Positions 29,358 to 61,985 of a stretch of 64,000 bases of DNA are shown here, one piece after another. The translations under genes were made by a program, and so were the position numbers. The first letter of the stretch is position 1; each line of letters begins with the position of its first letter. This DNA is from Phycisphaerae bacterium (GTDB lineage: Bacteria; Planctomycetota; Phycisphaerae; Phycisphaerales; SM1A02). The stretch is taken from contig VGXO01000006.1 of assembly GCA_016873275.1 (NCBI GenBank), positions 20,118 to 84,117 on the forward strand. The letters are read 5' to 3'. The notes under the pieces are model-generated. The model did not search any database, was not told the DNA's origin, and saw only the letters and a program-made list of their open reading frames with translations.

Positions 29358-29363
29358 TATCCT
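29358..29363 (+). promoter_or_regulatory. Possible -10 box for leaderless corA
   Basis: TATCCT ends 8 bases before the corA ATG at 29372, so a transcript would start at or near the start codon. There is no good -35 hexamer at the usual distance. The box is inferred from sequence and from matching arrangements at lysA, the DUF255 gene and the gene at the window end. Confidence 0.4.
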
Positions 29364-29371
29364 CGCGGCGC

Positions 29372-31953: not shown

Positions 31954-31962
31954 GCTTCATCG

Positions 31963-40538: not shown

Positions 40539-40566
40539 TTGACCCCCCGCCACATGGGTCTACCCT
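40539..40566 (+). promoter_or_regulatory. Sigma-70-type promoter upstream of dnaG
   Basis: TTGACC (40539-40544), a 16-base spacer and TACCCT (40561-40566) are in the region between rpmB and dnaG. Transcription would start near 40573 and run about 350 bases before the dnaG ATG. Confidence 0.55.
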
Positions 40567-40572
40567 CCCTCC

Positions 40573-40922
40573 CGGAGTGACTCGGACGGTCCATTGGGTG
40601 GATCCGGAAACCCTTCCGACCCCTCGGACCTGAGTGCCAGCCACGCCTCCCGCGCCTTGGAGCGGGCACAACCTGAGGTGTCGCGACCGGCGGGGAACGC
40701 ACCCCGATGAAGCCGGCGCGGGAGATGAGAGGCACGCGGCACGGACGCTCGCGGCTCACAGAGGCTGGAGTCCACTGAATCGCAGGTCAGAACGCCAAGG
40801 CGCCCCCCGGCGACCGTGGCGGTGTTCTTCGCTCGCTCCCGCGCTGCCATGCACTCGCTCCATTCCATCCTTCTGCGTGCGCCCGTCGAGGACTCGGCGG
40901 AGATCTCCGGAGGAATGGCAGC
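40573..40922 (+). ncRNA. Long untranslated leader or unnamed structured RNA upstream of dnaG
   Basis: This is the main part of the only non-coding stretch longer than 300 bases here (rpmB stop 40468 to dnaG ATG 40923). No reading frame in it looks protein-like. Just after the predicted transcription start, gAGTGACTC can pair with GAGTcCACT about 190 bases later (around 40768-40776), closing a domain of roughly 200 bases, a size and outline similar to 6S-type RNAs. It lacks recognisable tmRNA, RNase P or SRP signatures. A long dnaG leader is the alternative. Confidence 0.3.
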
Positions 40923-42791
40923 ATGAGCTTCGACCGCTCCGACCGCGACCGCGTCCTCGAGGCGACCGATCTGGTCGCCCTCGTCGGCGAGCACGTCAGG
41001 CTCGCTCCCAAGGGTCGCGAGCACCTCGGGCTGTGCCCCTTCCATGACGACCACCGCCCGTCGATGGCGGTGGTGACGCACAAGGGAATCCCCTTCTTCA
41101 AGTGCTTCTCCTGCGGCGCCGCGGGCAACGCGATCGACTTCGTGATGCGGTATCACCGCGTGGAGTTCCCCGAGGCGCTGCGGCTGCTCGCCGAGCGGAG
41201 CGGCATCACGCTCACGCCCCGCCGCTCGGAGTCGGGCGCCGATCGCGACGCGCGGACCGGGCTCCTCAAGGCAAACGAGTTCGCGTCGCGCACCTTCCGC
41301 CGGTTCCTCGCCGACGGGTCGCTCGGCACCTCCTCGCGCGAGATGATCGCCCGCCGAGGCGTCCCCGCGGCGGCGCAGGAGTCCTTCGCCCTCGGCGCGG
41401 CGCCCGCCGGCTGGGATCACCTCTCGAAGGTCGTCTCGGCGTGGCTTGCCCGTGGTCGCGGCGCCGAGGATGCCGCCGTGCGGATCGAGGACTTCGTGGA
41501 CGCCGGGCTGCTCCGCCGCAGCTCGCGCGGCGAGTGGATCGACGGGTTCCGCCACCGCCTGATGTTCCCGATCCGCAGCGAGATGGGTCGCGTCGTCGCG
41601 TTCGGGGCGAGGCAGATCGATCCCGAGGACCAGCCCAAGTACCTGAACAGCCCCGAGTCCGCGGTCTTCAAGAAGTCCGCGACGCTCTTCGGGCTCGACC
41701 TCGCCAAGCAGTCGATCATCCGCCGCCGGCTCGCGGTCGTCGTCGAGGGCTACCTCGACGTCATCGCCTGCCATGCCGCGGGCTTCGATCACGTGGTGGC
41801 GACGCTCGGCACCGCCCTCACCGCCGAGCACGCGAGGCTCCTGCGGAACAAGGCGGAGGCGGTGGTCCTCCTCTTCGACGGCGACGAGGCGGGGCAGCGT
41901 GCCGCCGACCGCGCGGTCGAGGTGTTCTTCGGCGGCACGCTCGACGTGCGGATCGGCGTCCTGCCCGGCGGGCTGGATCCGGACGATCTCCTCAAGAAGC
42001 CGGAGGGTCGCGAGGTGCTCGAGGCGACGGTCGCGGGGGCGATCGACTCGCTCGAGTTCCTCCTGCAGCGGTTCCGCGGAACGTGGCGGGACGCGACCGG
42101 ACTCTCGGGGCGACAGCAGGCGCTGGAGGCGTTCCTGCGCCGGCTCGCCGACCTCGGATTCGCGCGGATGAACCCCCTGCGTCGGAGCCTCGTCCTCGAG
42201 CGGCTCGCCGCCTGGACGGGGGTCACCACGGGCGCCCTTCTCGGGGCGATGCCCGCGGCGGTCTCGCGCCAGGTCGCCGCGCCGAGCTCGATGACGGCCG
42301 AATCCCCGCCGCCCTCGGTCGCCTCCCCCTTCGACGCCGCGATCGAGGTGCCGCCGTCGCGGCGGGTCGCGGAGCACACGCTCGTCTCGGTGCTCATCGC
42401 CTTTCCCCAGCACGCCGCCGACGCACCGGCTCGCCCCTTGCTCGATCCCCTCGCGAACGTCGCGCGGACGTGGCTGCTCGCGGCGCTCGCCGCCGGTCGC
42501 GAGCCGGTCTATTCCGACCTCTTCGCCGAGGTGCCCGCCCCGCGGCACCGCGACCTCGACGAGCTCCTTGCGCTCGCCGACCGCCGCCCCTCGCTCGAGG
42601 GCGATGCGCCGACGCAGCTCGCCGCCGCGCTCGACGACCTCGACCGCCTCGACCGCCTCGCGGAGATCGACCGCGAGCGACTCGACTCGGCGAGCCCCTC
42701 GGATCCCCTGGAAGTTGCCCGCCGCCTCGAGCGGCTTCGACATGGAGGCGGTCGCGCGACCGCCATCGGAAGGATCGCCCGCCCCGCGTGA
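40923..42791 (+). CDS. dnaG: DNA primase
   Basis: DnaG synthesises RNA primers at the replication fork. The 622-residue protein has the CHC2-type zinc ribbon (C38, H41, C61 and C64; CPFHDDHRPSM and CFSCGAAGNA), the RNA polymerase basic region, and a TOPRIM core (VVVEGYLDVIACHAAG, LLFDGDEAGQRAADRA). A variable C terminus follows, for helicase binding. Start ATG 40923 has a purine-rich ggagga 14 bases upstream. rpoD follows after 36 bases, the usual dnaG-rpoD pairing, without an upstream rpsU. Confidence 0.94.
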   Translation: MSFDRSDRDRVLEATDLVALVGEHVRLAPKGREHLGLCPFHDDHRPSMAVVTHKGIPFFKCFSCGAAGNAIDFVMRYHRVEFPEALRLLAERSGITLTPRRSESGADRDARTGLLKANEFASRTFRRFLADGSLGTSSREMIARRGVPAAAQESFALGAAPAGWDHLSKVVSAWLARGRGAEDAAVRIEDFVDAGLLRRSSRGEWIDGFRHRLMFPIRSEMGRVVAFGARQIDPEDQPKYLNSPESAVFKKSATLFGLDLAKQSIIRRRLAVVVEGYLDVIACHAAGFDHVVATLGTALTAEHARLLRNKAEAVVLLFDGDEAGQRAADRAVEVFFGGTLDVRIGVLPGGLDPDDLLKKPEGREVLEATVAGAIDSLEFLLQRFRGTWRDATGLSGRQQALEAFLRRLADLGFARMNPLRRSLVLERLAAWTGVTTGALLGAMPAAVSRQVAAPSSMTAESPPPSVASPFDAAIEVPPSRRVAEHTLVSVLIAFPQHAADAPARPLLDPLANVARTWLLAALAAGREPVYSDLFAEVPAPRHRDLDELLALADRRPSLEGDAPTQLAAALDDLDRLDRLAEIDRERLDSASPSDPLEVARRLERLRHGGGRATAIGRIARPA

Positions 42792-42827
42792 ACGCCGCCT
42801 ACCCTCGGCGATTGGAGCCTCGTCCCC

Positions 42828-44696
<1,869 letters not shown>

Positions 44697-44728
44697 CCGG
44701 CGAGGTCGGACGAGTGACCAATCCCCGG

Positions 44729-44754
44729 CGCCGGGGCGGACCTCCGCCCCGGCG
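44729..44754. terminator. Bidirectional terminator between rpoD and aldehyde dehydrogenase
   Basis: CGCCGGGGCGGA and its exact reverse complement TCCGCCCCGGCG form a 12-base-pair stem with a 2-base centre. The hairpin is followed by a weak tcgtcgttc tract. It lies between two convergent genes, where a shared terminator is expected. Confidence 0.7.
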
Positions 44755-44831
44755 TCGTCGTTCATGGTGAGGACGCCCGGCGTCGGCGGCGCCGACGGTC
44801 GAACGCGCCGGGGGCGGCAGGCGATCCGGCG

Positions 44832-46409: not shown

Positions 46410-46682
46410 ATGGCGAAGGCGATCGTCGATCCCGAGGAACTGCGCCGCTTCGCCGGCGACCTGCGCAAGACGACCGGCGAGATGCAGGCACGGATGGCGG
46501 GACTCCAGAGCCGGATGAGCCAGCTCTCCGAGACCTGGAAGGACCAGGAGCAGACCAAGTTCGCCGAGGAGTTCGACCAGACCATCAAGGTCCTCGCGCG
46601 GTTCGTGAAGGCGGCGGAGGTCCACGTTCCCTTCCTCATGCGGAAGGCGGACCGGATCGACGAGTACCTCAACCAGCGCTAG
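46410..46682 (+). CDS. WXG100-like small helical protein
   Basis: The 90-residue protein is predicted to be a helical hairpin. Its turn reads SETWKDQEQTKFAEEF, with Trp in the WXG position (the Gly is replaced by Asp) and the Phe-x3-Phe spacing found in EsxA-type proteins. These are secreted dimers in type VII secretion systems. The length (about 100 in the family) also fits. It opens a four-gene plus-strand locus ending with an FtsK/SpoIIIE-type ATPase, as in T7SS loci. No C-terminal YxxxD/E secretion signal is evident apart from a near match, IDEYLNQR. Secretion is inferred, not shown. Confidence 0.75.
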   Translation: MAKAIVDPEELRRFAGDLRKTTGEMQARMAGLQSRMSQLSETWKDQEQTKFAEEFDQTIKVLARFVKAAEVHVPFLMRKADRIDEYLNQR

Positions 46683-46737
46683 CCGTGCCCACCGCCTTGC
46701 CCCTGCCTGCCCCCATCCCCGCCGCGGATCCGACCGC

Positions 46738-47409
46738 GTGAGCGCCGAGGGCGCCGAGGTCCGCAACCTCGAGAGCCTCGAGCGGTTCCGCGCGGGGCTC
46801 CTCGAGTTCATCCACGACGGCGCGAACGCCCTCGCCGAGGCGGACTCCGAGGTCGACCGGATGCAGATCTGGCTCGAGCGCGACCAGAAGATCCACTGGC
46901 AGCACGAGCACCGCCGCCGGAGCGAGGAGGTCGCCCGCGCGAAGAGCGCCCTCTACCGCAAGCAGGTGACCGTCTCGAGCAAGGACCGCCCGCCCTCCGC
47001 GGTCGACGAGAAGAAGGCGCTCCAGAAGGCGCAGGCGCGGCTCGACGAGGCGGAGCAGAAGCTCCGGCGGATCAAGCATTGGTCGGTCGCCTTGGGTCAG
47101 GAGGCGGCTCGCTACAAGGCGGCGACCGCGGCGCTCGGCTCGGTCTTCGAGCGCGACCTCCCCATGTCCGCCGAGCTCCTCAAGCGGGCGATCACCGCCC
47201 TCGAGCAGTACCTCCACGCGGCGCCTCCCGACCTGCGGGCGCTGCTTGGATCGATCAAGGAGCTCACCCCGCCGCCCGCGACCTCGATGCGACGCTCGCC
47301 GGCGGGCGAGGGGGTCGCCTCGGAGGGATCCTCCGCGGACGCCGCGTCCGACGAGACGGGTCCCTCGGACGATCCGCCCGACGAGGTCGCCAAGGGATCC
47401 CGACCATGA
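46738..47409 (+). CDS. Coiled-coil protein of the WXG100/FtsK locus
   Basis: The 223-residue protein starts with GTG 46738, 55 bases after the WXG100 gene. It is almost entirely helical and charged: QIWLERDQKIHWQHEHRRRSEEVARAKSALYRK, then a heptad-like stretch (KKALQKAQARLDEAEQKLRRIKHW), a second helical part with MSAELLKRAITALEQYL, and a low-complexity Ser/Asp/Pro tail. I do not recognise a named family. It may serve as a scaffold or chaperone for the small WXG-like proteins. The next gene overlaps by ATGA. Confidence 0.7.
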   Translation: MSAEGAEVRNLESLERFRAGLLEFIHDGANALAEADSEVDRMQIWLERDQKIHWQHEHRRRSEEVARAKSALYRKQVTVSSKDRPPSAVDEKKALQKAQARLDEAEQKLRRIKHWSVALGQEAARYKAATAALGSVFERDLPMSAELLKRAITALEQYLHAAPPDLRALLGSIKELTPPPATSMRRSPAGEGVASEGSSADAASDETGPSDDPPDEVAKGSRP

Positions 47410-47618
47410 GCGTCGCGTCGAGCCGCCTGCGGCTGCAGCTCCTGCACCAGGAGCTTCTGCAGCGCTGGGGTCGGGTCTGCGAGACCTGGGATGACCCGGT
47501 CCGTCGCGCGCTGCAGGAGAAGCAGATCGAGCCGCTCGACGGGCGCATCCGCGCGGCGCTCGCCGCGATGGACAAGATGCGCGATACGATCGCCGTCGTG
47601 CGTCGAGAGTGCGGGTGA
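47406..47618 (+). CDS. 70-residue WXG-like helical protein
   Basis: This short gene begins at ATG 47406, overlapping the preceding stop. The protein is a predicted helical hairpin and carries CETWDDPVRRALQEKQIEPL, whose ETWxD turn aligns with ETWKD in the first gene of the locus. The partner helix is RIRAALAAMDKMRDTIAVV. It is therefore likely a second, diverged WXG-type protein, although half the usual length. Its stop overlaps the ATPase start. Confidence 0.65.
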   Translation: MSVASSRLRLQLLHQELLQRWGRVCETWDDPVRRALQEKQIEPLDGRIRAALAAMDKMRDTIAVVRRECG

Positions 47619-50600
47619 CCGACCGCGGCGCCGCCTTCCACGCCATGCCGTCCCCGACTCCAGATGCCGCCCGCGACGCCGCCGAAGGGGCGGGCGCGCC
47701 GACCGCGAGCGATCCGCTCCTCGCCGCCGGCGTGCTCGTCGAGGATCTTGCGCGGTCGATCGAGGCGCATCGGGCGGATTCCGCGTCCTCGCGGGAGTCG
47801 AGCGCGAGGCGCCGAGCCGACGCGACCGCCCGACGCGAGCAGCTCGTCAAGGATGCGAGGGAGTCGCGCGATCTAGCGCTTGCCGCGGCGGACGCCGAGC
47901 GGACCGCCGCGATCGAGAAGGAGGAGCACCGCTACGCGGAGCGGCTGCAGCGCATCGAGCGGGAGATCGAGACCGCCCGCCGGGAGGCGCACGAGAAGTG
48001 CGAGCAGGCGGAGGAGGATGCCCGCAAGGCGCTCGCCGAGACACAGTGGCTTGCCGACAGCGTGCACGAGAGCGGTCTCGAGCGGAACCGCGTCGAGCTC
48101 GAGAAGGTGCGCGAGCGGCTGACCGAGGCGCGGGCGGTGCTCGAGGAAGTCCGCGGACGGGTCCGAAGCCATCTGCGTCGCTGCCGGATCGCCGAGCCCA
48201 GAAGCGGCGAGCCCAGAAGCGGCGAGCCCAGAAGCGGCGAGCCAAGGAGCAGCGTGCCGGGTGACGGTCCGTCCGAGGTCCGCGATCCGACCGCCCTTCC
48301 CATGGCGCTCGTCGAGATCCGCGGGGGTGCCGAGCGGATCGAGAAGCTGACGCTCCCGCTCATCTTCCGCGGCGTCTTCCCGCTGCTCTTGGTGCTTCCC
48401 GGCGCCGCGATCGGAGGCGCGATCGGCGCCTGGCTTCGGGAGGCGGACACCGCCGCCATCCTCGTGGGGGTCGGCGCCGGCGTCGCGGTCTCGATCCTCG
48501 CCCTGTTGTGCGCCTCTCTCGTCGCCCGGCGGCAGGTCGGGCGACAGCACCGGAGGATCGCCAGCGCCGCCGCGACGATCGACCGCCTGGCGGAGTCGAT
48601 GCTCAAGCAGGCGAACGAGGCGCGGCGGATCGCCGACGCCGAGCTCGACGCGAACCTCGCCCGCGAGACCGCCGACGCGCTCGCCAAGTTCGATCCCTAC
48701 CTCGCCGAGCTCCTCGCCCGACGCGAGGCGCGGCTCGCGCAGCTCGATGGACTCGGTCCGAAGTACCGCGAGCGTGCCGCCCTCGAGCGAGCCGAGCGGC
48801 TCGAGGCGGCGGACGCCGAGGCGAGCCGACGCCGGACCGACGCGAGCCGCGCCGCCGAGGAGGCGACCGCCGCCGCCGAGCGCGAGGCGACCGAGGCGAT
48901 CCAATCGATCGACGCGGAGGACGCCGACGCCCTCGAACGCCGTCGTCGCGCGTGGGATCAGGCACGCCATCGATTCGAGTGCGGATGCCGGGCACTTGGC
49001 GACCTCGCCGCGCCTCGCGCCCGCCCGTGGAGCGATCCCGCGTGGCGGACCTGGGATCCCGCGGGCGCGCCGAGCCTTCCCCTCGCCGTCGGCGGCGTCG
49101 AGGTCGATCCGGCGCGGCTCGTCACGGCGGCGAAGGATCCCGCGGACGATCCTGCCCGCCCCTGGCCCGCGGCGACCTCGCTTCCCGTCCTCCTCTCCCT
49201 TCCTGCGCGGCGAGGTCTCCTCGTCGAGGTCGATGCGGCGCAGCGACCGCAGGGTCTCGCCCTGCTGCAGGCGGCGGTGCTCCGGATCCTCACGACCCTG
49301 CCGCCCGGCAAGGTCCGGCTCACCTTGGTCGATCCGGTCGGGCTCGGGGCGAGCTTCGCCGGCTTCATGCACCTCGCCGACGAGGACCAGGCGATCGTCG
49401 GCGACCGCATCTGGACCGATCCCCGTCACGTCGAGCAGCGGCTCACCGACCTCACCGAGCACATGGAGACGGTGATCCAGAAGTACCTCCGGAACGAGTT
49501 CGGCTCGATCGACGCCTACAACGAGAAGGCGGGCGAGATCGCGGAGCCCTACCGCGTGCTGGTCATGGCGGACCTGCCGGCGGGTCTCACCGACGCGGGC
49601 GCGAAGCGCCTCGCGAGCATCCTCGAGTCAGGCGCCCGCTGCGGCGTGCTGACGCTCCTCTTGCGGGACCTCCGCACGCCCCTCCCCGCGGCGCTGCCGC
49701 CCGAGGACCTCGCGCGGGGCGCGGTCCGGATCCGCCCGGCGGGCGCCACCGATCCGCGCCTCGTGGTCGAGGCGCCCGGGCTCGATCGGCTGCCGCTTCA
49801 CCTCGACGAGGCGCCCCCCGCCGAGCTGCTGCAGTCCCTCGCGGGGCGGATCGGTCGCAGCGCGAAGCAGGCGTCCCGCGTGGAGGTCCCCTTCGAGGCG
49901 ATCGCCCCCGCGGCGAAGGATCGCTGGACCCTCGACAGCGGCCCGCGGCTCGCGGTCTCCCTCGGTCGCGCCGGCGCCACGAGGCTCCAGCAGATGGTGC
50001 TCGGCGAGGGCACCGCGCAGCACGTCCTCATCGCGGGCAAGACCGGCTCCGGCAAGTCCACCCTGCTGCATGCGCTCGTCACGAACCTCGCCGCGTGGTA
50101 CTCGCCCGAGCAGGTCCAGCTCTACCTCGTCGACTTCAAGAAGGGCGTCGAGTTCAAGACCTACGCGACCCACCGGCTCCCGCACGTGAAGGCGGTCGCG
50201 GTCGAGAGCGACCGGGAGTTCGGGCTCAGCGTGCTGCAGGGGCTCGACGCCGAGCTCAAGCGGCGCGGCGACCTCTTCCGAGCGGTCGGCGTGCAGGACC
50301 TCAAGGGCTTCCGTGCCGCGCGACCAAAGGAGCCGATGCCCCGCACGCTCCTCGTGATCGACGAGTTCCAGGAGCTCTTCACCGAGGACGACAAGGTCGC
50401 GAGCGAGGCGGGTCTCCTGCTCGACCGCATCGCGCGGCAGGGTCGTGCCTTCGGCGTGCACGCGGTGCTCGGCTCGCAGACCTTGGGCGGCGCGTACTCG
50501 CTCGCCCGCAGCACCATGGGTCAGATGGGCGTGCGCATCGCGCTGCAGTGCTCCGAGGCGGACGCGCAGGTGATCCTCTCCGACGACAACACCGCCGCGC

Positions 50601-51628
50601 GGCTGCTGTCGCGACCCGGCGAGGCGATCTACAACGACGCGGGCGGGCTCGTCGAGGGCAACAGTCCCTTCCAGGTGGTGTGGCTCCCGGAGGAGGTCCG
50701 CGACCGCGTCCTCGCCGACGTCGTCGAGCTCGCCCGCGCCCGAGGTCTTCCGCCGGCGATGCCGCTCATCTTCGAGGGCAGCGCCCCCGCCGACCTCGCC
50801 TCGAACGCGCCGCTCGCGGCGATGCTTCGGGATCCCGCGAAGCGACCCTCCCGCGAGCTCCTCCGGCTCTGGGTCGGGGATCCGGTGGCGATCCGCGACC
50901 CCGCGGCGGCGGAGCTCCGGCGCCAGCCCGGCGCGAACCTCGTCCTGGTCGGTCAGCAGATCGAGACCACCCTCGGCATGCTCGCCTCCTCGCTCATCGG
51001 CGCCGCCGTGCAGCGGAAGGGCGTCGGACTGAAGGTGATGCTGCTCGACGGAACGCCCGGTGACGATCCCTCGCACGGGACGCTGCCGAGCCTCGTCGAT
51101 CGGCTGCCGTTCGACGCTCGCGGGGTGTCGCCCCGGGAGGTGCCGGAGGCGCTCGCGGAGCTCGCCGCGGAGGTCGTCGCGCGGCAGGACGATCCGACCC
51201 GCGACGCGACCACCACGCTCCTCGTGATCCACGGTCTCCACCGGTTCCGCGACCTCCGCCGCGCCGAGGACGACTACGGCTTCTCCTCGGACGGCGGCCC
51301 GCCCAAGCCCGACAAGCTGCTCGCCTCGATCCTTCGGGAGGGTCCCTCGGTCGGGGTGCACGTCGTCGCGAGCACCGACACCGTTCCCAACCTGCAGCGG
51401 GTGGTCGACCGCACCGGGCTCCGCGACTTCGACTGGCGGGTCGCCCTGCAGATGGGCGCGACCGACTCAAGCACGCTCGTGGACAGCCCGCTCGCCTCGC
51501 GGCTCGGGCTCACCCGCGCCTACCTCCACAGCGAGGAGCAGGGACTGCTCGAGAAGTTCCGCCCCTATCCGCCGCCGGATCCGGCGTTCGTGGAGGCCGT
51601 GCTTGAACGGCTTGCGAGCCCCGGCTGA
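47615..51628 (+). CDS. FtsK/SpoIIIE-type (EccC-like) ATPase with long coiled-coil N terminus
   Basis: The 1337-residue protein starts at GTG 47615, overlapping the upstream stop (GTGA); GTG 47609 and ATG 47645 are alternatives. Order: a long charged coiled coil (about 30-190), an EPRSG repeat (about 194-213), two membrane spans (about 245-272 and 279-303), a second coiled coil (about 310-470), and a degenerate ATPase-like module (about 500-790). The one canonical FtsK/SpoIIIE module follows, with Walker A GKTGSGKSTLLHAL at about 808-820 and Walker B TLLVIDEFQELF at about 909-920. A third, degenerate module starts near 1105. This three-module order recalls EccC/EssC, in which normally only some modules are active. 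Its N terminus is unlike theirs (no FHA domains). Confidence 0.85.
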   Translation: MTDRGAAFHAMPSPTPDAARDAAEGAGAPTASDPLLAAGVLVEDLARSIEAHRADSASSRESSARRRADATARREQLVKDARESRDLALAAADAERTAAIEKEEHRYAERLQRIEREIETARREAHEKCEQAEEDARKALAETQWLADSVHESGLERNRVELEKVRERLTEARAVLEEVRGRVRSHLRRCRIAEPRSGEPRSGEPRSGEPRSSVPGDGPSEVRDPTALPMALVEIRGGAERIEKLTLPLIFRGVFPLLLVLPGAAIGGAIGAWLREADTAAILVGVGAGVAVSILALLCASLVARRQVGRQHRRIASAAATIDRLAESMLKQANEARRIADAELDANLARETADALAKFDPYLAELLARREARLAQLDGLGPKYRERAALERAERLEAADAEASRRRTDASRAAEEATAAAEREATEAIQSIDAEDADALERRRRAWDQARHRFECGCRALGDLAAPRARPWSDPAWRTWDPAGAPSLPLAVGGVEVDPARLVTAAKDPADDPARPWPAATSLPVLLSLPARRGLLVEVDAAQRPQGLALLQAAVLRILTTLPPGKVRLTLVDPVGLGASFAGFMHLADEDQAIVGDRIWTDPRHVEQRLTDLTEHMETVIQKYLRNEFGSIDAYNEKAGEIAEPYRVLVMADLPAGLTDAGAKRLASILESGARCGVLTLLLRDLRTPLPAALPPEDLARGAVRIRPAGATDPRLVVEAPGLDRLPLHLDEAPPAELLQSLAGRIGRSAKQASRVEVPFEAIAPAAKDRWTLDSGPRLAVSLGRAGATRLQQMVLGEGTAQHVLIAGKTGSGKSTLLHALVTNLAAWYSPEQVQLYLVDFKKGVEFKTYATHRLPHVKAVAVESDREFGLSVLQGLDAELKRRGDLFRAVGVQDLKGFRAARPKEPMPRTLLVIDEFQELFTEDDKVASEAGLLLDRIARQGRAFGVHAVLGSQTLGGAYSLARSTMGQMGVRIALQCSEADAQVILSDDNTAARLLSRPGEAIYNDAGGLVEGNSPFQVVWLPEEVRDRVLADVVELARARGLPPAMPLIFEGSAPADLASNAPLAAMLRDPAKRPSRELLRLWVGDPVAIRDPAAAELRRQPGANLVLVGQQIETTLGMLASSLIGAAVQRKGVGLKVMLLDGTPGDDPSHGTLPSLVDRLPFDARGVSPREVPEALAELAAEVVARQDDPTRDATTTLLVIHGLHRFRDLRRAEDDYGFSSDGGPPKPDKLLASILREGPSVGVHVVASTDTVPNLQRVVDRTGLRDFDWRVALQMGATDSSTLVDSPLASRLGLTRAYLHSEEQGLLEKFRPYPPPDPAFVEAVLERLASPG
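48194..48253. repeat. In-frame 15-base repeat encoding EPRSG
   Basis: Three exact units of gagcccagaagcggc and one variant (gagccaaggagcagc) encode EPRSG three times and EPRSS. They use AGA/AGG arginine codons that are rare in neighbouring sequence. The unit is a multiple of three, so copy number can vary without a frameshift. The repeat sits between the first coiled coil and the first membrane span of the ATPase. Confidence 0.9.
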
Positions 51629-51635: not shown

Positions 51636-54600
51636 TCATCCCGCGGAACCCTTGCTCGATTGGACGGAGCCAGAGACCGCCTCGCCGAACGCCCGCTCGA
51701 GGCGGGCGAGCGAGATCGGCTCGCGGGTCCCGAGCCGGTCGGCGAAGGTCGCGACGTGGAGCTCCTCGATCAGGCGGCGGAGGCGGCTCGCCCGCGGGTC
51801 ATGCACCGCGAGGTCGCTCGCGCGAAGCCGATCCTCGAACGCGCCGATCGCCGCGGCGTCGGCGAGGTCGCGGGTCGAGCCGCGGAGGCGATCGAGCCGC
51901 GACTCGAGCCCCGCGAGGAACCGGGGAAGGTCCTCGACGAGCTCGACGACGAACGCCTCGTGCCTCGGGTCGAGCCGCGCGAGACGGTCCGCCACCTGCG
52001 CGAGGGTCGTCTGCCACTCGGAGGGCGCCGGCTCGGCGAGGCGTCGCAGGATCGTCCTCCGGCGCCTCCCGGCGTCCGCAAGCGAGGAGACGACGCGGTC
52101 GACCTGCCCAAACAGCTCGCGCTCCCCCTGCTCGAGCCGCGCCTCGAAGCTCGCCGCGTCGCGCACGCGCCGGGGATCGATCCGGAAGGAGCGCTCCGCG
52201 ACGAGGGCGATGACCGCGTCGATCAGCGACGCGCTCCGGCGCCGCGCGGTCGATGCCGACGCTGCGCCGAGCGCGGTCTCGCCTTCCCACGCCGCCCGGA
52301 CCTCCGACCATCGCGGGTGGTAGTCGAGGTGATGCTCGATCGCCATGCGCGAGGCATCGACGAAGAGGCGGCGCAGGCCGAGCATCGTCGAGGCGAGCGC
52401 CCGCGCAAGGTCGTCCTCGAGCCGAAGCCCGACGCCCTCCGCATGCTCGACGAGCGCCGGGTGCATCGCGATCTCGCGACCGCCGAGCCGGACCATGACC
52501 TCGAGCGGGATCGCGACCTCCTCGAGCCGCGCGATCCGCTCGCGGGTGAAGCGGGAGAGCGACTCGGTCTCGCCGGTGCGGTCATCGAGGCGGCGCCGCG
52601 ACTCCGGAAGCCACTGCGCCCTGAGCGACCGCGGATCGCGCGACGCCGCGACGACCTGACCGCCCTCTCGCCGCGGCTCGCCCCGCAGCTCGACCCGCAT
52701 CCGAAGCGATGGCTCGAGCGGCACCTCCATGAGGAGCGATGGCTCCACGCCCTCGCCGATCCGCCGGCGGAGCGCGATCGCGAGGGCGCTCCAGAACGAT
52801 CCGATCCCGAACGTCGAGGGCGACTCCATCGCCCGGGCGCACTCCGCCGCGACCTCCCGCATCGGCTGGAGCCTCACCCGGAGGTCCTTGGGAAGTCCCC
52901 GCAGCACCGCCGCGACCTTCTCCTCGATCCGACCCGGGACCAGCCAGTCGAGGCGATCGAGATCGAGCGCCCCGAGCGCCTCGATCGGGACCTCGACGGT
53001 GACGCCGTCCTCCGCGCTGCCGGGCGCGTGTCGATACCGCAGCGGCAGCGCCAGGCGCCCGCCGCCCGCGCGAGCGACCACGAGCTCCTCGGGAAACGCG
53101 GCGGGGTCGGGCACCTGCCACTCGCCCACCACGTCCTGCGGACGCATCCAGAGGAGCTTCGGCTCCCGCGCCTCGACCTGCCGCCGCCATCGCTCGAAGC
53201 TCGGACCGCTGTGGACCTCCGCCGGGACCCGGCGATCGAAGAACTCGAATACCGCCTGCTCGCGGAGCGACGCGTGCGGTCGGCGCGATCGCGCCTCGAG
53301 CTCCGCCAGCTCCTCGAGGAGCCTCGCGTTCCGCGCCGCGAACAGCCCCCGCGTCCGCCAGCGACCCGCGACGAGCGCCTCCTGGATGAAGACCTGCCGC
53401 GCGGCGGCGGGATCGACGGGACCGAAGGGCACCCGCCGACGCGGGATGATCGTGACCGCGCCGAGCCGCACCCGCTCCCACGCGGCGACCTGACCGGTCT
53501 CCGGGATCCAGTGCGGCTCGAAGTGCTCGCGGGAGAGCAGGTGCGGCGCGACCTCTTCGACCCACGACGCCCGCACCGGCGCGACGGTGCGGAGCCAGCG
53601 CCGCTCGGTCTCGACGAGCTCCGCGCTCACCACCAGTCCCCCGTGATCGCGGGGAAGCGAGGAGGCAGGCCAGATCGACGCCCGCACGCCATCCACGGTG
53701 ACGAACTCCCCCTCCCGCGACCTTGGGTCCTTCCCGCGACCGCCCGACTCGACCGCCTCCCTCGCCGCGACGCCGCTCACGAGCCCCCGGAGCACCGCGC
53801 GATGAAGCCGCACCGGATCGAGACCTGCCGCCACCACGAGCTCCGCCGGCACCTCGACCCGCCACGATCGCCGCACGAGCGCCGCGACCTGCCGCGCGAT
53901 CGCCGTCCACTCGCGGAGCGCCGCCTCCTGCAGGCGGTTCCGCCTCGCCCAGCGGCGCCTTGACGACGCGCCCTCCGAGAGCCGCGACGACCACGCCTCC
54001 CACAGGCGGAGGAGCGAGAGGAAGTCCGACCGCGGATCACGCAGGACCGGCGTCGCCTCCTCGCTCGCGGGACTCCGTGCCTCCGCCCGCTCGCCGAGGC
54101 GGGGATCCGGCGCCGCGAGCGCCGCGGCGATCACGATCGCCTCGACGAGGCAGCCTTCCTCCAGCCCTCCGTGCACGATGCGGGCGAGGCGAGGGTCGAG
54201 CGGAAGCCGCGCCAGCCGACGCGCGAGGGCGTTCGGCCGCTCGCGGAGGACCTCCCCCTGCCACACCTCCTCGAGCGCCCCGATCTCGCGGAGCGTGCGC
54301 CGTGCCTCGTCGATCCGGCTCGCCGGCGGCGGATCGACCCAAGGGAACTCCTCGATCGGCGGAAGCCGTCGATGGTGGAGCTCGAGCATGAGTCCCGCGA
54401 GCCCGCTCCGCAGGATCTCGGGCGGCGTGAACTCCGCGCGGCGGGCGAGGTCCTCCTCCGCGTAGAGCCGAAGGCAGGTCCCGGGACCGACCCGTCCGCA
54501 CCGCCCGGCGCGCTGGAGGGCGCTCGCCCGGCTGATCGGCTCGATCCGCAGCCGGGCGATCCGCCGCCGCGGGTCATGGCGCCGGACGCGGGCGAGTCCC

Positions 54601-55739
54601 GAATCGACCACCGAGCGGACCCAAGGGAGCGTGAGCGAGGTCTCGGCGACGTTCGTCGCGAGGATGACCCGCGGTCCCCTCGGCGCACGGAACGCCGCGT
54701 CCTGCGCCGCCGCGTCGAGCCGGGCGTGCAGCGGGAGGATCGTCGCCCGCGCCGCGAGCCGACCGCCGAGGATCTCCGCGAGGTCGTCGATCGCCCGCGT
54801 GCTCGGCAGGAACGCGAGCACGTCGCCGGGCTCGCCCTCCTGCCGCGCGAGCACCTCGTCGATGCCGGACGCCATCGCCTCGAGGAGCGCTGCCTCCGCG
54901 TCCGCCTCGCCGGACTCCTCGATCGGTCGATGCAGGATCTCGACCGGATGCCGGCGCCCGGGCACGTCGAGGATCGGCGCTCCACCGAAGAACGCGGCGA
55001 TCGGCTCGGCGGCGAGGGTCGCGGAGGAGATGATCACCCGCAGGTCGTCGCGGCGCCGCGTCGCGCGGCGGAGCGCCCCGAGCAGCAGGTCGATGACGAG
55101 GCTCCGCTCGTGCGCCTCGTCGATCACCACCACCTCGCAGCCGCGGAGGAGCGGATCGTGCCCGAGCCGCGCGGCGAGCACGCCGTCGGTCGCGACCTCG
55201 ATGCGGGTCGCGGGCGAGGTGCGGTCCTCGAAGCGGGTGCGGTAGCCGACGCCGCCGCCGAGCTCGACCTTGCACTCCGCGGCGATCCGCGCGGCGATCG
55301 CCCGCGCCGCGATGCGGCGCGGCTGCGTCACCACGATGCGTCCCTCGATCCCGAGCCCGAGCGACGCGGCGATCCGCGGGATCTGGGTGCTCTTGCCGCT
55401 GCCGGTCTCGCCCCGCACGACCACCACGCGGTGCCTACGGATCGCCTCGGCGAGGTCCGACCAGACCGCCGCGATCGGGAGGTCCGCGGGCGGCGGGGTC
55501 AGGTCGAGCGGCATCGAGCGGCGTCGGGCGAGCGCCGCGATCTCCCGCCTCGCCTCCTCGACGGCATGACCCGCGCGAGGACCGCGGAGGCGACCCTCGA
55601 CCACGCGGCGGAGCCGGTCGCCGAACCGCCGCGCGATCGCCGGCTCGAGCAATGCCGCGAGGACCCGCGCCTGCGCCCGCCACGAGGGACGGGGATCGAC
55701 CGCCCCGGATGGTCGAGCCTGAGGCTCCTCCTGTGGCAT
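51636..55739 (-). CDS. hrpA: ATP-dependent RNA helicase HrpA (DEAH box)
   Basis: HrpA is a 3'-5' RNA helicase involved in mRNA processing and ribosome rescue. The roughly 1367-residue protein has Walker A GETGSGKSTQ, DEAHERS (motif II), ISSAT (III), the motif V region ILATNVAETSLTLPWVRSVVD and motif VI QRAGRCGRVGPG, then the winged-helix/HA2 region and the long bacterial HrpA C terminus. Start ATG 55739 is chosen; GTG 55814 or earlier codons would add a low-complexity Pro/Glu/Ser leader. It is convergent with the FtsK-type gene, only 7 bases apart. Confidence 0.9.
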   Translation of the reverse strand: MPQEEPQARPSGAVDPRPSWRAQARVLAALLEPAIARRFGDRLRRVVEGRLRGPRAGHAVEEARREIAALARRRSMPLDLTPPPADLPIAAVWSDLAEAIRRHRVVVVRGETGSGKSTQIPRIAASLGLGIEGRIVVTQPRRIAARAIAARIAAECKVELGGGVGYRTRFEDRTSPATRIEVATDGVLAARLGHDPLLRGCEVVVIDEAHERSLVIDLLLGALRRATRRRDDLRVIISSATLAAEPIAAFFGGAPILDVPGRRHPVEILHRPIEESGEADAEAALLEAMASGIDEVLARQEGEPGDVLAFLPSTRAIDDLAEILGGRLAARATILPLHARLDAAAQDAAFRAPRGPRVILATNVAETSLTLPWVRSVVDSGLARVRRHDPRRRIARLRIEPISRASALQRAGRCGRVGPGTCLRLYAEEDLARRAEFTPPEILRSGLAGLMLELHHRRLPPIEEFPWVDPPPASRIDEARRTLREIGALEEVWQGEVLRERPNALARRLARLPLDPRLARIVHGGLEEGCLVEAIVIAAALAAPDPRLGERAEARSPASEEATPVLRDPRSDFLSLLRLWEAWSSRLSEGASSRRRWARRNRLQEAALREWTAIARQVAALVRRSWRVEVPAELVVAAGLDPVRLHRAVLRGLVSGVAAREAVESGGRGKDPRSREGEFVTVDGVRASIWPASSLPRDHGGLVVSAELVETERRWLRTVAPVRASWVEEVAPHLLSREHFEPHWIPETGQVAAWERVRLGAVTIIPRRRVPFGPVDPAAARQVFIQEALVAGRWRTRGLFAARNARLLEELAELEARSRRPHASLREQAVFEFFDRRVPAEVHSGPSFERWRRQVEAREPKLLWMRPQDVVGEWQVPDPAAFPEELVVARAGGGRLALPLRYRHAPGSAEDGVTVEVPIEALGALDLDRLDWLVPGRIEEKVAAVLRGLPKDLRVRLQPMREVAAECARAMESPSTFGIGSFWSALAIALRRRIGEGVEPSLLMEVPLEPSLRMRVELRGEPRREGGQVVAASRDPRSLRAQWLPESRRRLDDRTGETESLSRFTRERIARLEEVAIPLEVMVRLGGREIAMHPALVEHAEGVGLRLEDDLARALASTMLGLRRLFVDASRMAIEHHLDYHPRWSEVRAAWEGETALGAASASTARRRSASLIDAVIALVAERSFRIDPRRVRDAASFEARLEQGERELFGQVDRVVSSLADAGRRRRTILRRLAEPAPSEWQTTLAQVADRLARLDPRHEAFVVELVEDLPRFLAGLESRLDRLRGSTRDLADAAAIGAFEDRLRASDLAVHDPRASRLRRLIEELHVATFADRLGTREPISLARLERAFGEAVSGSVQSSKGSAG

Positions 55740-55943
55740 CGGCGACTCGGGCGCTTCCGGCGTTCCTGGCGGACGAGGCTCGACCGAACGATCACCCGAC
55801 GGCTCGTGATCCACCGATCGCCTCGTCCTGCTCGACCCGATCCACCGCGACCTGCCGCGTCGCCCTCGGGGGTCGAGGGTCCCGAGGAGCTGCGTCCGCC
55901 GCGGTCGCTTCGTCCGCGACTCGACGCGACGGCTCGATTCTAC

Positions 55944-55960
55944 GGAGCCGCGGCGGCTCC
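55944..55960. other. Perfect inverted repeat upstream of tRNA-Val
   Basis: GGAGCCG-CGG-CGGCTCC forms a perfect 7-base-pair palindrome with a 3-base centre, ending 7 bases before the -10-like TACACT (55968-55973) of tRNA-Val. It occupies the -35 region and could be an operator or a terminator stem; nothing decides between them. Confidence 0.35.
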
Positions 55961-55991
55961 TCCCCCGTACACTTGCCGCTCGATCCACGCC

Positions 55992-56064
55992 GGGCGCTTA
56001 GCTCAGCGGCGAGAGCACCGCCTTTACACGGCGGGGGTCACTGGTTCGAATCCAGTAGCGCCCA
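55992..56064 (+). tRNA. tRNA-Val (anticodon TAC)
   Basis: Acceptor GGGCGCT/AGCGCCC, D arm GCTC...GAGC, anticodon arm CCGCC-TTTACAC-GGCGG and T arm ACTGG-TTCGAAT-CCAGT form a complete cloverleaf. The anticodon is TAC (UAC, valine), the discriminator is A, and CCA is not encoded. A -10-like TACACT lies 18 bases upstream. Confidence 0.93.
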
Positions 56065-56090
56065 TCCGAAGCCTTCCGACGCCAGTCACC

Positions 56091-57974
56091 GTGCCTCATC
56101 CCCGCCTTCGAGTCCTCGCCGCGACGCTCTGCGCCCTCGCCCTGCCGACCCTCGCGGGCTGCATGGTGGAGAAGGCGACGCCCAAGCCGAAGACGACCCG
56201 CAACGAGCCGAACTTCGAGCTCGACGTGGAGCCGATCCTCCGCGGCACGATCATGAGCGAGAGCATCATGATCGGCTTCGAGCCGACCATCGTGCGCGGC
56301 TACGGGCTGGTGGTCGGGCTCAAGGGAACCGGCAGCCGGATCATGCCCGCCGAGGTGCGGGCGCAGATGATCCGCGAGATGGCAAGGCGCGGGATCGGCA
56401 GCGCCGCCCACGGCGCCGGCGACCTCAGCCCGGAGAAGATGCTCAACTCCGACGACGTCGCGGTCGTCATCGTCGAGGGAGTGATCCCCGCGGGCTCGCC
56501 CAAGGAGGCGACCTTCGACGTGCGGGTCGTGGCGATCCCCGGCTCCGGCACCACGAGCCTCGAGGGCGGCACGCTCTACACGACCGACCTCCGACCGGGT
56601 CCGCTCACCACCGGCAGCAAGCAGCCCTTCGCCCTCGCGGAGGCGCGGGGACCGATCTTCATCAACCCCTTCATCGAGCCCGACGCGAACGGACGAGACT
56701 CGATCAACCGCACGTCCGGTCGGATCCTCGAGGGCGGGAAGACCACCAAGGACATCCCGATCAAGGTCCGCCTCGCGAGCACGAGCCACGCCCGCGCCGC
56801 GACGATGCAGTCGGCGGTCAACTCGATGTTCCCCCGCGAGCCCGGGCAGCGCACCGAGACCGCGCACGGTCGCTCCGGGGACGTCATCGAGCTGAACGTG
56901 CCTCCCTCCTGGCGCGACAAGGCGGAGGAGTTCGTGAAGCTCGTGCAGCACACCTCGCTCATGACCACCGCGCCCGAGCAGACCGCCTACGCGGTGCGCC
57001 GGGCGCTCCTCGCGAGCCCCGGTCAGGGCGAGGCGGCCGCGTGGCGCTGGCGGGCGATCGGCTCCAAGTCGATCCCGGTCTTCCAGGACCTCTACACCTA
57101 CCCGGAGGATGGTCCCCGCCGCGCCGCGATCGAGGCGGGCGCCTACCTGAAGGACCCGATGGTCGTGCCGCCCCTCATCGAGATGGCGACCACCGGCGAC
57201 TCCACCACCCGGCTGCTTGCGATCGACCTCCTCGCGAACCTCGGGCTCGACCCGCGGATCGACCTGGCGCTCCGCCCGCTCCTCGACGACGCGGACGTCG
57301 ACATCCGCCTCGCCGCGTTCGAGTGCCTCGAGAAGCGGAACGACCCGATCGTCCGCACCTACGTCGTGGACGACAAGTTCGACCTTCAGGTGGTGCCGAG
57401 CTCGAAGGAGATGATCTACGTCAGCCAGTCCGGTCGCCCGAAGCTCGTCCTCTTCGGCGAGGAGGGCGCGGTCCGGCGTCCGGTGACGTTCGCGGCGTGG
57501 TCGAACCGCCTGATGATCCGCGGCGACGAGGGCACCGAGACGCTCTCGGTCTACTGGAAGCTTCCCGGTCCCGACCCGCCGGTCGTGCTCGACGCCCCCG
57601 CGGCGATCCCGGAGTTCATCGCCTTCCTCGGGCACCAGCGGACCCCCGAGTCGCCGCTTCCGGGGATCGGCCTGACCTACGCCGAGACGATCGGCGCCCT
57701 CCACGCGCTCTGGTCCGACGGCTTCCTGCCCGGCGGCTTCAAGACCGAGCAGGACCGGATCCTCGCCGCGATCATCCGGGCACAGGAGGAGGAGGTCCCG
57801 CCCTCCCGACCGGAGTTCGAGGAGGAGGAGCTCGATCTCGACGACGGTCGGGTCGAGTCGCTCGCCGGGATCGAGGAGACCGGCACCGGCATCGGCGGCG
57901 TGGACGCGCCCAACCAAGCAGACCTCCAGGCGGTTGAGCGAGCCGCGACCGGTCGCGATACTGTGCCCCGCTGA
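56091..57974 (+). CDS. Lipoprotein with FlgI-like (P-ring) domain and HEAT-like repeats
   Basis: The 627-residue protein starts with GTG 56091 and has a lipoprotein signal with lipobox TLAGC at about residue 24. The N-terminal half contains VRGYGLVVGLKGTGSR and the following VAVVIVEGVIPAGSPKEATFDVRVVAIPG, which closely resemble the flagellar P-ring protein FlgI (LIGYGLVVGL...). A central part (about 345-430) has HEAT-like helical repeats (VPPLIEMATTGDSTTRLLAIDLLANLG). The last 30 residues are acidic. No other flagellar gene is in the window, so a ring-like outer-membrane role is inferred by analogy only. The smc promoter overlaps its 3' end. Confidence 0.8.
   Translation: MPHPRLRVLAATLCALALPTLAGCMVEKATPKPKTTRNEPNFELDVEPILRGTIMSESIMIGFEPTIVRGYGLVVGLKGTGSRIMPAEVRAQMIREMARRGIGSAAHGAGDLSPEKMLNSDDVAVVIVEGVIPAGSPKEATFDVRVVAIPGSGTTSLEGGTLYTTDLRPGPLTTGSKQPFALAEARGPIFINPFIEPDANGRDSINRTSGRILEGGKTTKDIPIKVRLASTSHARAATMQSAVNSMFPREPGQRTETAHGRSGDVIELNVPPSWRDKAEEFVKLVQHTSLMTTAPEQTAYAVRRALLASPGQGEAAAWRWRAIGSKSIPVFQDLYTYPEDGPRRAAIEAGAYLKDPMVVPPLIEMATTGDSTTRLLAIDLLANLGLDPRIDLALRPLLDDADVDIRLAAFECLEKRNDPIVRTYVVDDKFDLQVVPSSKEMIYVSQSGRPKLVLFGEEGAVRRPVTFAAWSNRLMIRGDEGTETLSVYWKLPGPDPPVVLDAPAAIPEFIAFLGHQRTPESPLPGIGLTYAETIGALHALWSDGFLPGGFKTEQDRILAAIIRAQEEEVPPSRPEFEEEELDLDDGRVESLAGIEETGTGIGGVDAPNQADLQAVERAATGRDTVPR
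57934..57962 (+). promoter_or_regulatory. Sigma-70-type promoter for smc
   Basis: TTGAGC (57934-57939), a 17-base spacer and GATACT (57957-57962) lie inside the last codons of the FlgI-like gene. Transcription would begin near 57969, about 84 bases ahead of the smc ATG. Confidence 0.6.
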
Positions 57975-58015
57975 CGCGGCGGAGCCGCGACGAACCTGCC
58001 GCGCCGGAGGCGCGG
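57975..58015 (+). promoter_or_regulatory. Two GGA-loop hairpins in the smc leader
   Basis: CGCGGC-GGA-GCCGCG (57975-57989) and CCGCGCC-GGA-GGCGCGG (57999-58015) are perfect hairpins that each present GGA in the loop, in the short region between the FlgI-like stop and smc. GGA in a hairpin loop is the recognition element of CsrA-type RNA-binding proteins. A further ggagg at about 58040 lies near the ribosome binding site. This is a structural resemblance, not evidence of binding. Without a T-run they are poor terminators. Confidence 0.4.
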
Positions 58016-58052
58016 AGGTCCGCGACGAGCGACGAGGCATGGAGGTCCCACG

Positions 58053-61000
58053 ATGCGGTTGAAGAGGCTCACCGTCGCCGGGTTCAAGAGCTTCGCGGAT
58101 CCCACCGAGTTCGAGTTCGACGTGCCGATCGCCGGCGTTGTCGGTCCCAACGGCTGCGGCAAGTCGAACGTCGTCGATGCGGTTCGCTGGGTCCTCGGCG
58201 AGCGGAGCGCCCGCAGCCTGCGCGGCACCGCGATGCTCGACGTCATCTTCGCCGGCAGCGCCGCCCGCCGACCGGCGGGCATGGCGTCGGTCACGCTGAC
58301 CTTCGACAACCCGCTCCGCAGCCTCTCGACCGCGGACGCCGCGCGAGCGGAGGGCGAGGACCTCGCCGCCGACCTCGACCGCCAGTTCGCGGCGGAGGAG
58401 CTCGCGGAGCTCGCCGCGACGGAGGATCCCGATCCGGAGATCGCCGCGGAGGGCGCCTCGCCGATCCGCCGCGACGTCGCGCGGCGGCGGTGGCTGCCGG
58501 TCGATGCCGACGAGGTCTCGGTCAACCGGCGCCTGCACGCGGACGGGCGAAGCGAGTACCTGATCAACGGTCGCAAGTGCCGCCTCAAGGACATCCGCGA
58601 GCTCTTCCTCGACACCGGGATCGGCACCGACGCCTACTCGATCATCGAGCAGGGCAAGGTCGACTCGATGCTCCTCGCGAACCCGCAGGAGCGGCGGGCG
58701 ATCCTCGAGGAGGCGGCGGGCGTCGCCCGGTTCCGCCTGCGGAAGGTCGAGGCGGCGCGCCGGCTCGATCACGCCGAGCGGAGCCTCGTCGCGGTGCGCG
58801 AGCAGTTCGCCTCCACCGAGCGGCGGCTGCGGATCGTCCGCGGGCAGGCGGAGAAGGCGCGGCGCTTCGAGGAGCTCGACGCCCGACGACGCGAGTTGCG
58901 CCGCGTGCTCCTCCTCGAGCAGTACCACGACCTCGTCGTGCGGATCGAGGGGCTCACCAGCGAGCTCTCCCGCGTGGAGGCGGAGAAGGTCGAGATCTCC
59001 CGAACCGTCGAGGAGCTCGCGGCGAAGCGGGAGGTCGCGGAGTCCGCCCGGCACGCCGCGACCGCCGAGCGGCATCGCCTCGCCGAGCAGCGGCTTGGTC
59101 TCCTCGGGATCGCCCGGGAGAACCGCCAGCGGATCGAGCTGACCGAGCAGACCCTCCGCGAGATCGCCGACCGCGAGGAGGCGGACCGAGCCCGCCTCGA
59201 GGACGACGCCCGCCGGCTCGAGGCGCTCGCGAGGCGCCTCGACGAGTGCGCGGAGAAGCTCGCCGCCGCCGCGGAGCACGCCGCCGACCAGGAGCGCGAG
59301 GTCGATCGGCTCGGGCAGCTGCGGGCGACCGCGGCGTCCTCCCTCGTCGAGAGCCAGGCGGCGCACGAGCGCCATCAGGAGACGGCGTCGCGGCTCGGCT
59401 CCGAGCGGAGCCAGCTCGCCGCCCGCCTCGCCGGGGGTCAGGAGCGGATCCGCTCGCTCGGTCGCGACCTCGAGGAGCTCCTCGAGCGCCGCACGCCGCT
59501 CGAGGAGACCCTCGTCGACCGCCGGGCGAGCCTCGCCACCGCGACCGCCGCGCAGTCGAAGGCGGAGCAGTTCCGCGACCGCGCCCGGGCGAGCCTTGCC
59601 GAGATCGGTCGCGTCGCCGCGGAGATCGACGCGCGGCGCGGCCGGCTCGTCGAGGAGCTCGACGCGCTTCGTGATCGTCGCACCAGCCTCAACTCGCGCC
59701 TGCGGCTCCTCGAGGAATGGCGGCAGTCCGGCGAGGGTCTCGACGAGGCGGTCCGTCGCGTCCTCGCGGCGAAGGAGAAGTTCCCGTGGGTCCTCGGACT
59801 CGTCGGCGACCTCCTCGAGACCGACCGCGCGAGCGCCCCGATCGTCGAGGCGGCGCTCGGACCGACGCTCCAGCTCTTCGCGACCACCGATCGCGCCCTC
59901 GTCGCCGCCCACGCCTCCGCGGTCTCCTCGCTCGGCGGCGGCATCGCGTTCCTGCCGCTCGACGCCCCCGCCCGCGCCCGCCCCGCGGTCGCGGTGCCGG
60001 CGGAGGCGATCGCGGTGCGGTCGCTCGTCAAGGTCCGCGCGGACCTCGCGGCGCTCGCCGACCGCCTGCTCGGCTCGACCTACGTCGCGCCGGACCTCGC
60101 GACGGCGCTTCGGTGGACCTCGCCCGGCGGTCCGCTCGAGGGCTGCGACGTGGTCGCCCGCGATGGCTCGCGGGTCGCGGCGGGCGGCACCATCCGCCTC
60201 GGCGTCGCGGCGGCGCGGTCGCGAAGCCTCGGCTGGATCGAGCGTCGCGCCGAGTCGCAGGAGCTCGCCCGCGAGCTCGCGGTCCTCGAGGCGACCATCG
60301 CCGAGCTCTCGCAGGGCGAGGAGTCGCTCGCGAGCGAGCTCGAGGGCAACCGCGCGGACGCCCGGCGGCTCTCCGGCGAGATCGAGACCTCGGGTCGCGA
60401 GGCGGTCGATCGGCAGGTCGAGTCCGAGCGGCTCTCGACCCTGATCGAGCGCCTCGAGCAGGAGCGGAGCCACCTCGACGAGCGCCGCCGCACCCTCGAG
60501 GACCGCCTCGAGACCTCGCAAGCCGAGGTGCGCGAGCAGGAGTCGCGCCTGGCATCCCTCGAGGGGCTCCTCGGCGAGCAGCGACGCCTCGCGGAGGAGA
60601 GCCGCGAGCGCTCCGCCGCCGACCGTCGCCGCCTCGACGAGGCGACCGAGCAGCTCTCCGAGGCTCGGCAGGTGCTTGGTCGCGCCGGCGCCGCGGTCGA
60701 GGCGGCACGCCGCGAGGCGTGGGACCTCGAGCGCGAGCTCGAGGAGACCCGCCGGCAGCACGCGGCGCTCGTCGAGCAGTCCGCCCGCCGCGGCGACCAG
60801 AAGGAGCGTCATCGCGCGATCGTCGCGGAGTCGGTCGATGCCGCCGCCCGCGCCGAGGCGCAGGCGGAGACGCTCGTCGCGGAGGTCGAGTCCGCCGGGC
60901 GGCGTGCCGCCGAGGCGGAGCGGATCGCCGGCGAGGTCGGCGAGGCGCTCGACGCCGGTCGCCGCCGGGCGTCCGAGGTCGACCGGAATCATCACGCCGT

Positions 61001-61967: not shown

Positions 61968-61985
61968 TCCTCTCCCGAGGTCGTC

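Follow-up and report, generated by a model that had tools for sequence, protein, structure and literature searches.

ATPases of the EccC/EssC type that are encoded with small WXG100 proteins have been described in several settings. Footnote 6 to a table of Zhang et al. 2012 records solo WXG domains together with a YueA-like ATPase in which, of three HerA/FtsK domains, the middle alone is active (PMC3482391). In their account of loci near CoCoNuTs, Bell et al. 2024 describe a fusion of a coiled coil and a restriction endonuclease, encoded next to two WXG100 proteins and an ATPase of this kind, and cite Anantharaman 2012 for stand-alone versions (PMC11090510). Helicobacter pylori HP0062 is described as a helical hairpin that dimerises and has WRD at its bend, and its gene lies in a cluster with one for an FtsK/SpoIIIE protein (PMC3397514). 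LXG toxins assemble with two WXG100-like partners, Lap1 and Lap2, into a heterotrimer (PMC9600955), and the type VII secretion systems (T7SS) named T7SSc-j have been defined by Garrett et al. 2024 in Bacillota and Actinomycetota (PMC11217815). The locus considered here consists of four genes, P1 to P4, in a 64,000-nt stretch of a Phycisphaerae bacterium genome (contig VGXO01000006.1, positions 20,118 to 84,117), hereafter the window. The ATPase/WXG type itself is already known from the 2012 footnote and from the 2024 description of loci beside CoCoNuTs; what is new is a chromosomal version without a recognised toxin, membrane-anchored by prediction, in which the C-terminal part of P2 is a probably disordered tail or, in 11 of 57 cases, an Imm33-like domain. 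Among the titles and abstracts listed in searches of the open PMC literature, from which subscription papers are mostly missing, none described the set of four genes in planctomycetes, its ATPase with two helices, its dispersal or the Imm33 fusion.

The four genes likely encode a type VII-like exporter that stands alone and in which, by analogy with LXG toxins and their Lap1/Lap2 partners, P1 and P3 would clasp P2 for the ATPase P4, a reading to which a probability of roughly 55% is assigned. A preliminary description of this DNA had interpreted the locus as a minimal type VII-like system, which is supported in part. Its four tightly coupled genes with ATGA and GTGA overlaps were found where it had placed them (Table 1), with a gap of 55 bases between P1 and P2 and an ATGA overlap of 4 bases between P2 and P3. 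The P4 frame encodes 1339 residues when read from 47609; read from the GTGA at 47615, it encodes the 1337-residue FtsK-type ATPase of that description, and the protein-database copy from the same contig (P0005) is equally long.

The four genes were also found to be conserved together. At least 570 relatives of the ATPase were found in the contig scan, and because the 80 loci analysed are the best of these, the locus counts describe close relatives. By record title, 75 of these 80 are from planctomycetes, one is from Lentisphaerae (L105), one from Alphaproteobacteria (L056), and three (L032, L052 and L083) are titled only "bacterium". The order P1-P2-P3-P4 was present in 56 of the 80 loci; a further 17 are cut by contig ends, five of them still with a small WXG-like gene adjoining the ATPase gene, with or without P2, and seven lack the trio over at least 6.8 kb upstream of the ATPase. 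All four genes are present at L080, from the cultured planctomycete Singulisphaera acidiphila DSM 18658. WXG100 genes were found elsewhere in the genomes of all seven exceptions and of three more (10/10), and P2 was found elsewhere in 14 of 15 genomes searched, again including all seven exceptions, with G107 as the single miss. Across the phylum the ATPase is patchy (24 of 199 sampled genomes, absent in 175), and P3 was found in 23 of the 199, namely the 24 ATPase genomes minus G107. WXG100 proteins were detected at E values up to 0.001 in 41 of 294 genomes (34 above the curated cut-off), and these 41 include all 24 ATPase genomes, four of which fall under the curated cut-off. Compared by genome handle, G028 is the only genome in the shared sample range with a WXG100 match (E 4.3e-4) and no ATPase. 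As these genomes are related, the cases of joint occurrence cannot be counted as independent, and a hypergeometric value, which takes no account of this, is disregarded.

The association persists where the genes are not adjacent. A single contig of G105 carries them at approximately 235 kb (P4), 711 kb (P1), 1936 kb (P3) and 2664 kb (P2); G087 has each gene on a different contig; only P2 and P3 are linked in G024, G137 and G194, with P1 and P4 apart; and in G152 P1, P2 and P3 are linked with P4 0.7 Mb off. The scattering in G105 suggests that selection acts on the set and not on the operon, and the dispersal of the genes without their loss indicates that they work as a set. Each is mostly single-copy (P3 in 23/23 and P2 in 14/14 positive genomes, WXG100 in 39/41, the ATPase in 23/24). 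The sole genome among the 24 with two family ATPase genes is G076 (contigs C126 and C138). In G107 (L013) a diverged ATPase gene (45% identity) stands beside a WXG100 gene and neither P2 nor P3 was found, so this locus is possibly a separate type. At L085:1292-5269, a contig of a metagenome-assembled genome, the ATPase frame is split into two pieces, which may reflect an error or a pseudogene.

On sequence grounds P1 is a member of the WXG100 family, as had been proposed for an EsxA-like helical protein. The PF06013 match exceeds the curated cut-off (E 1.3e-10), and thus a WXG100 protein is encoded alongside the ATPase, a trait of T7SSa and T7SSb. The best solved match of the P1 family profile is HP0062 (3fx7, residues 1-89, E 1.1e-11), and the profile also matches structures of EsxB and EsxA. 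Instead of the WxG motif of the T7SSa and T7SSb proteins, P1 carries W43-K-D45-Q-E47, with Asp in place of Gly in 57/57 family members; D45 and E47 are present in all 57 and W43 in all 56 that have a residue there. With start codons of the relatives picked by script, 53 of 56 loci encode a P1 of 90 residues, and two of the remaining three are cut by contig ends. HP0062 and most P1 relatives share WRD, and the window P1 has WKD; the HP0062/HP0066 cluster of H. pylori differs in that an HNH/ENDO VII nuclease gene is reported in it, whereas no nuclease was recognised in the planctomycete set (PMC4978471, PMC3397514).

P3 is probably a second WXG100-like protein, for which the evidence is moderate. 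The 70 residues and the WxD motif claimed for it were confirmed (W28-x-D30 in 57/57 members, with a Cys near the C terminus, Cys69, in 55/57), while its placement in a WXG100-like family is only probable and comes from profile comparison. Against the P1 profile, P3 scored 24.9 over 58 columns with an HH probability of 39%, which rose to 64% with longer rows. None of 100 column shuffles of P1 reached this score (best 19.2), and the other comparisons gave 13.5 for P3 with reversed P1, 17.3 with P2, 17.6 with reversed P2, and 19.0 for P1 with P2. Matches of P3 to EsxA were weak (E 0.04). Relative to the two WXG100-type proteins of the system in Bell et al. 2024, the counterpart of P1 is clear and that of P3 depends on profile comparison only, at the HH value of 39% (PMC11090510).

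P4 is, as judged from its sequence, related to EccC/EssC. Two predicted membrane helices separate a long coiled coil from a second coil, and three ATPase modules follow; the FtsK_SpoIIIE match covers residues 777-958 (E 1.6e-33) and the Walker A motif GKTGSGKS starts at residue 810, counting from 47609. The preliminary description of one intact and two degenerate modules agrees with a single P-loop in 57/57 family ATPases and the exact Walker B string in 51/57. Hydrophobic segments ahead of the modules, predicted with Kyte-Doolittle windows of 19, number two in 54 of 57 members, one in two and three in one, consistent with the membrane anchor that had been proposed. A short tandem repeat at ~48200-48245 (+) codes for repeats of EPRSG in the segment that links the coiled coil to the first membrane helix. 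The best NCBIfam models were those of T7SS EccCa, EccCb and EssC, all far under their cut-offs (EccCa E 3.1e-36). EccC 4nh0 is the closest solved structure by sequence (E 1.4e-37) and also the first Foldseek match (E 8.2e-33) of the AlphaFold model of the module part (predicted local distance difference test score, pLDDT, 85.5). Superposition on EccC (VIA) ran end to end over 740 residues at a root-mean-square deviation of 13.4, so the placement of the modules differs from that in EccC, and the outer modules rest on few rows. In the region of the third module, EssC/EccC structures align to model residues 280-845 (4lya) and 279-847 (4n1a). On the middle module FtsK motors lead by Z (30.6), in a structural comparison that hardly tests the regions outside model residues 279-570.

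The arrangement of three FtsK/HerA modules with a P-loop in the middle one only is the type of Zhang et al. 2012 and Bell et al. 2024, and the first degenerate module (D0) is common to P4 and plasmid ATPases: the D0 profile found the ATPases of five plasmids (scores 27-95) and did not match a Streptomyces EccC, a Rothia ATPase or the host genome's own FtsK match (all at or below 3.1). In the tree P4 falls outside the EccC group (86/92, not starred), which counts against placing it in the EccC/EssC family. The branch that unites the planctomycete and four plasmid ATPases has the same support (86/92, not starred) and long branches, the Deinococcus ATPase was placed elsewhere, beside the FtsK row, and the Rothia protein (EssC-type is the analyst's label; the record reads FtsK/SpoIIIE domain-containing protein) grouped with EccC at 100/100.

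P2 had been called a charged coiled-coil protein; the gene is present and its product is predicted to be one long helical hairpin (helices 11-77 and 89-160) followed by a tail that is probably disordered in the AlphaFold model. The mean pLDDT is 86, rising to 93-98 over the greater part of the hairpin and dropping to 54-69 across the tail. W45 and Y158 are invariant, Foldseek with the P2 model matched nothing specific, and neither a Pfam toxin nor an LXG family was found among 57 P2 proteins. An Imm33-like domain is matched by 11 of the 57, presumably the same 11 proteins that have long forms of 342-357 residues (L038, L039, L046, L067, L071, L077, L081, L088, L098, L102 and L109); in single scans L039 and L067 matched it above the cut-off, whereas the L098 match stayed under it. 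With the long L067 protein as query, rather than the window P2, a search returned 86 homologues of two forms, one of 195-268 residues without a Pfam domain and one of 342-369 residues that nearly always carries PF24719.

Relatives of the ATPase on plasmids indicate what the P2 position may hold. On plasmids of Rhodococcus, Caballeronia, Helicobacter and Deinococcus, the ATPase gene is accompanied by a larger gene whose product is partly helical and by small genes, of which one or more are WXG-like; on the Rhodococcus pseudokoreensis plasmid the small genes follow the ATPase and none is recognised as WXG100 by Pfam. The P1 profile matches small proteins beside the ATPases of three plasmids (E 1.6e-25, 2.3e-17 and 1.4e-15). 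The Helicobacter plasmid has, in order, a WXG-like protein, a helical protein with a C-terminal nuclease of WHH/colicin type (E 1.1e-11 and 9.8e-9), a SUKH-1 immunity gene (E 1.6e-6) next to it, a small protein at the place of P3, and the ATPase. No toxin was recognised in the other four of the five plasmid loci, and the homology of P2 to the proteins in this slot is weak. Kyte-Doolittle membrane segments number one in the Rhodococcus, none in the Caballeronia and one in the Helicobacter ATPase. At L133 and L150, TerD genes lie beside the ATPase gene on one Rhodococcus plasmid, and Hsp70, TPR and GrpE genes on another. Because of the Helicobacter nuclease/immunity pair and the coiled-coil/restriction-endonuclease fusion of Bell et al. 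2024, the P2 slot looks like a cargo slot, one that would be toxin-free in planctomycetes.

The locus shares some features with each described system and differs in others. With the footnote of Zhang et al. 2012 it shares three modules, one intact P-loop, a WXG protein and planctomycetes among the hosts; the footnote concerns solo WXG domains and mobile versions, whereas the planctomycete set adds P2 and the probable WXG-like P3, is chromosomal and mostly single-copy, and has an ATPase with two predicted membrane helices (PMC3482391). With the system of Bell et al. 2024 it has in common three ATPase domains of which only the central one is active, a long N-terminal coiled coil and a coiled-coil protein; as described there, that system is a defence locus with a nuclease domain on the coiled-coil protein and an ATPase without membrane helices, in contrast to the planctomycete set, where no nuclease was recognised and two helices are predicted in most members (PMC11090510). 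The absence of a Pfam toxin from the P2 proteins and the presence of these helices set it apart from the CoCoNuT-linked form. T7SSa, T7SSb and T7SSc-j also pair an EccC/EssC-type ATPase with a WXG100 protein, but are described from Actinomycetota and Bacillota and with four NTPase domains, further components and mostly a YukD-like protein, compared to three modules here (PMC11217815). The likeness to LXG toxins lies in a helical toxin domain served by two small WXG100-like partners, and the difference in the lack of a Pfam match of P2 to LXG or toxin families (PMC9600955).

Taken as an exporter, P1 and P3 would bind P2 in the way that Lap1 and Lap2 bind LXG toxins, the resulting complex would dock on P4, and hydrolysis in the middle module would drive export of P2 over the inner membrane through a pore that may be lined by the predicted helices of P4 itself. 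As the P2 slot of a plasmid relative holds a nuclease and an immunity gene and the planctomycete slot no recognised toxin, the planctomycete version could be a domesticated one that would work for the envelope or surface of the cell itself. A more specific and tentative proposal, held at somewhat less than even odds, is that planctomycetes turned a toxin-delivery cassette into a self-contained exporter, in which the helices of P4 replace the EccB/D/E or EsaA/EssB channel and P1 and P3 chaperone P2 as a non-toxic cargo.

Table 1. Features of the four-gene locus, in window coordinates
Feature	Coordinates	Strand	Basis
P1, WXG100-family, 90 aa	46410..46682	+	PF06013 E 1.3e-10
P2, GTG start, 223 aa, predicted helical hairpin and tail	46738..47409	+	AlphaFold, invariant columns
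P3, 70 aa, probable second WXG100-like protein	47406..47618	+	profile vs P1, weak EsxA matches
P4, EccC/EssC-related ATPase, GTG start 47609 or 47615	47609..51628	+	FtsK_SpoIIIE, EccC 4nh0
P4, two transmembrane helices predicted at residues 251-269 and 283-301	48359..48511	+	Kyte-Doolittle
First degenerate ATPase module of P4 (D0; DPVGLG...SFAGFMHL; no P-loop)	49091..49708, limits by eye	+	alignment, D0 profile
Middle intact ATPase module of P4	49937..50638, limits approximate	+	Walker A GKTGSGKS 50036-50059, Walker B IDEFQE
Third degenerate ATPase module of P4 (GQQ at P-loop site, by eye)	50756..51583, limits by eye	+	alignment, EssC/EccC structures

The other T7SS genes had been reported as absent from the locus. 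For the ubiquitin-like YukD/EccD domain and YukC (EssB) this held for the whole genome, in a search that detected the B. subtilis control; EccB also gave no whole-genome match, but neither did it in the control genomes, and EccE, mycosin, EsaA and EssA were outside the search. The absence of YukD and YukC could also point to a membrane-tethered remodelling machine without export, in which the WXG pair and P2 would be adaptors for envelope or cytoplasmic partners. The long coiled coils of P4, seen by eye, the lack of a Pfam toxin in P2 and the mostly single copy of each gene would fit this explanation as well, which is nevertheless considered unlikely, as WXG100 proteins and EccC-type motors are, in the T7SS literature consulted, known from secretion (PMC11217815).

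A defence or conflict cassette, answering phage or rival attack as in CoCoNuT/TerY-P loci, is improbable, although several observations point that way. The ATPase/WXG locus on the Caballeronia plasmid lies among VWA, PP2C, kinase and CARF-nuclease genes, TerD genes occur at the Rhodococcus plasmid locus, some P2 proteins carry the Imm33-like domain, and related loci have been described in defence (PMC11090510). P4 matches the defence models SspH (3.1e-31), mad8 (5.5e-25) and HerA, but these library matches span only the generic ATPase module; P2 gave weak coiled-coil matches there, with E values no better than 0.0013, and neither P1 nor P3 gave any. In the window, AAA_5/Mg-chelatase-like and VWA-domain genes lie side by side ~13 kb upstream of the locus (29110-33708, +), which we take to resemble a MoxR/VWA-like pair. 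Against this, the nearest of the neighbours with Pfam matches (14 open reading frames scanned) encode an aldehyde dehydrogenase and an HrpA-type helicase, followed by ClpX, trigger factor and glutamine synthetase, and the set is retained when dispersed, unlike a cassette. The helicase gene (with DUF3418, 51636-55988, -) is convergent with that of P4. Two long minus-strand frames, of 2350 residues (55998-63050) and 1401 residues (40560-44765), had no Pfam match at 1e-4, and a family of minus-strand frames with a median of 1356 residues was found in 12 of 80 loci, mostly ~4 kb past the start of the ATPase frame.

An FtsK/SpoIIIE-type DNA translocase for segregation or transfer is very improbable, given a stronger FtsK_SpoIIIE match on another contig (202 vs 97 bits), no C-terminal gamma DNA-binding domain among the 25 of 27 matching families listed (E up to 10), EccC ranking first in both the sequence search and Foldseek, and the joint occurrence with WXG proteins.

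If the four genes do encode an exporter, they may be close to the smallest set able to run a type VII-like one, and this in a phylum with two membranes. It would then become testable which part of a T7SS forms the pore, and whether an EccC-type motor can work without the remaining membrane complex. The planctomycete set would, moreover, represent a toxin-delivery module that has been retained without a recognised toxin.
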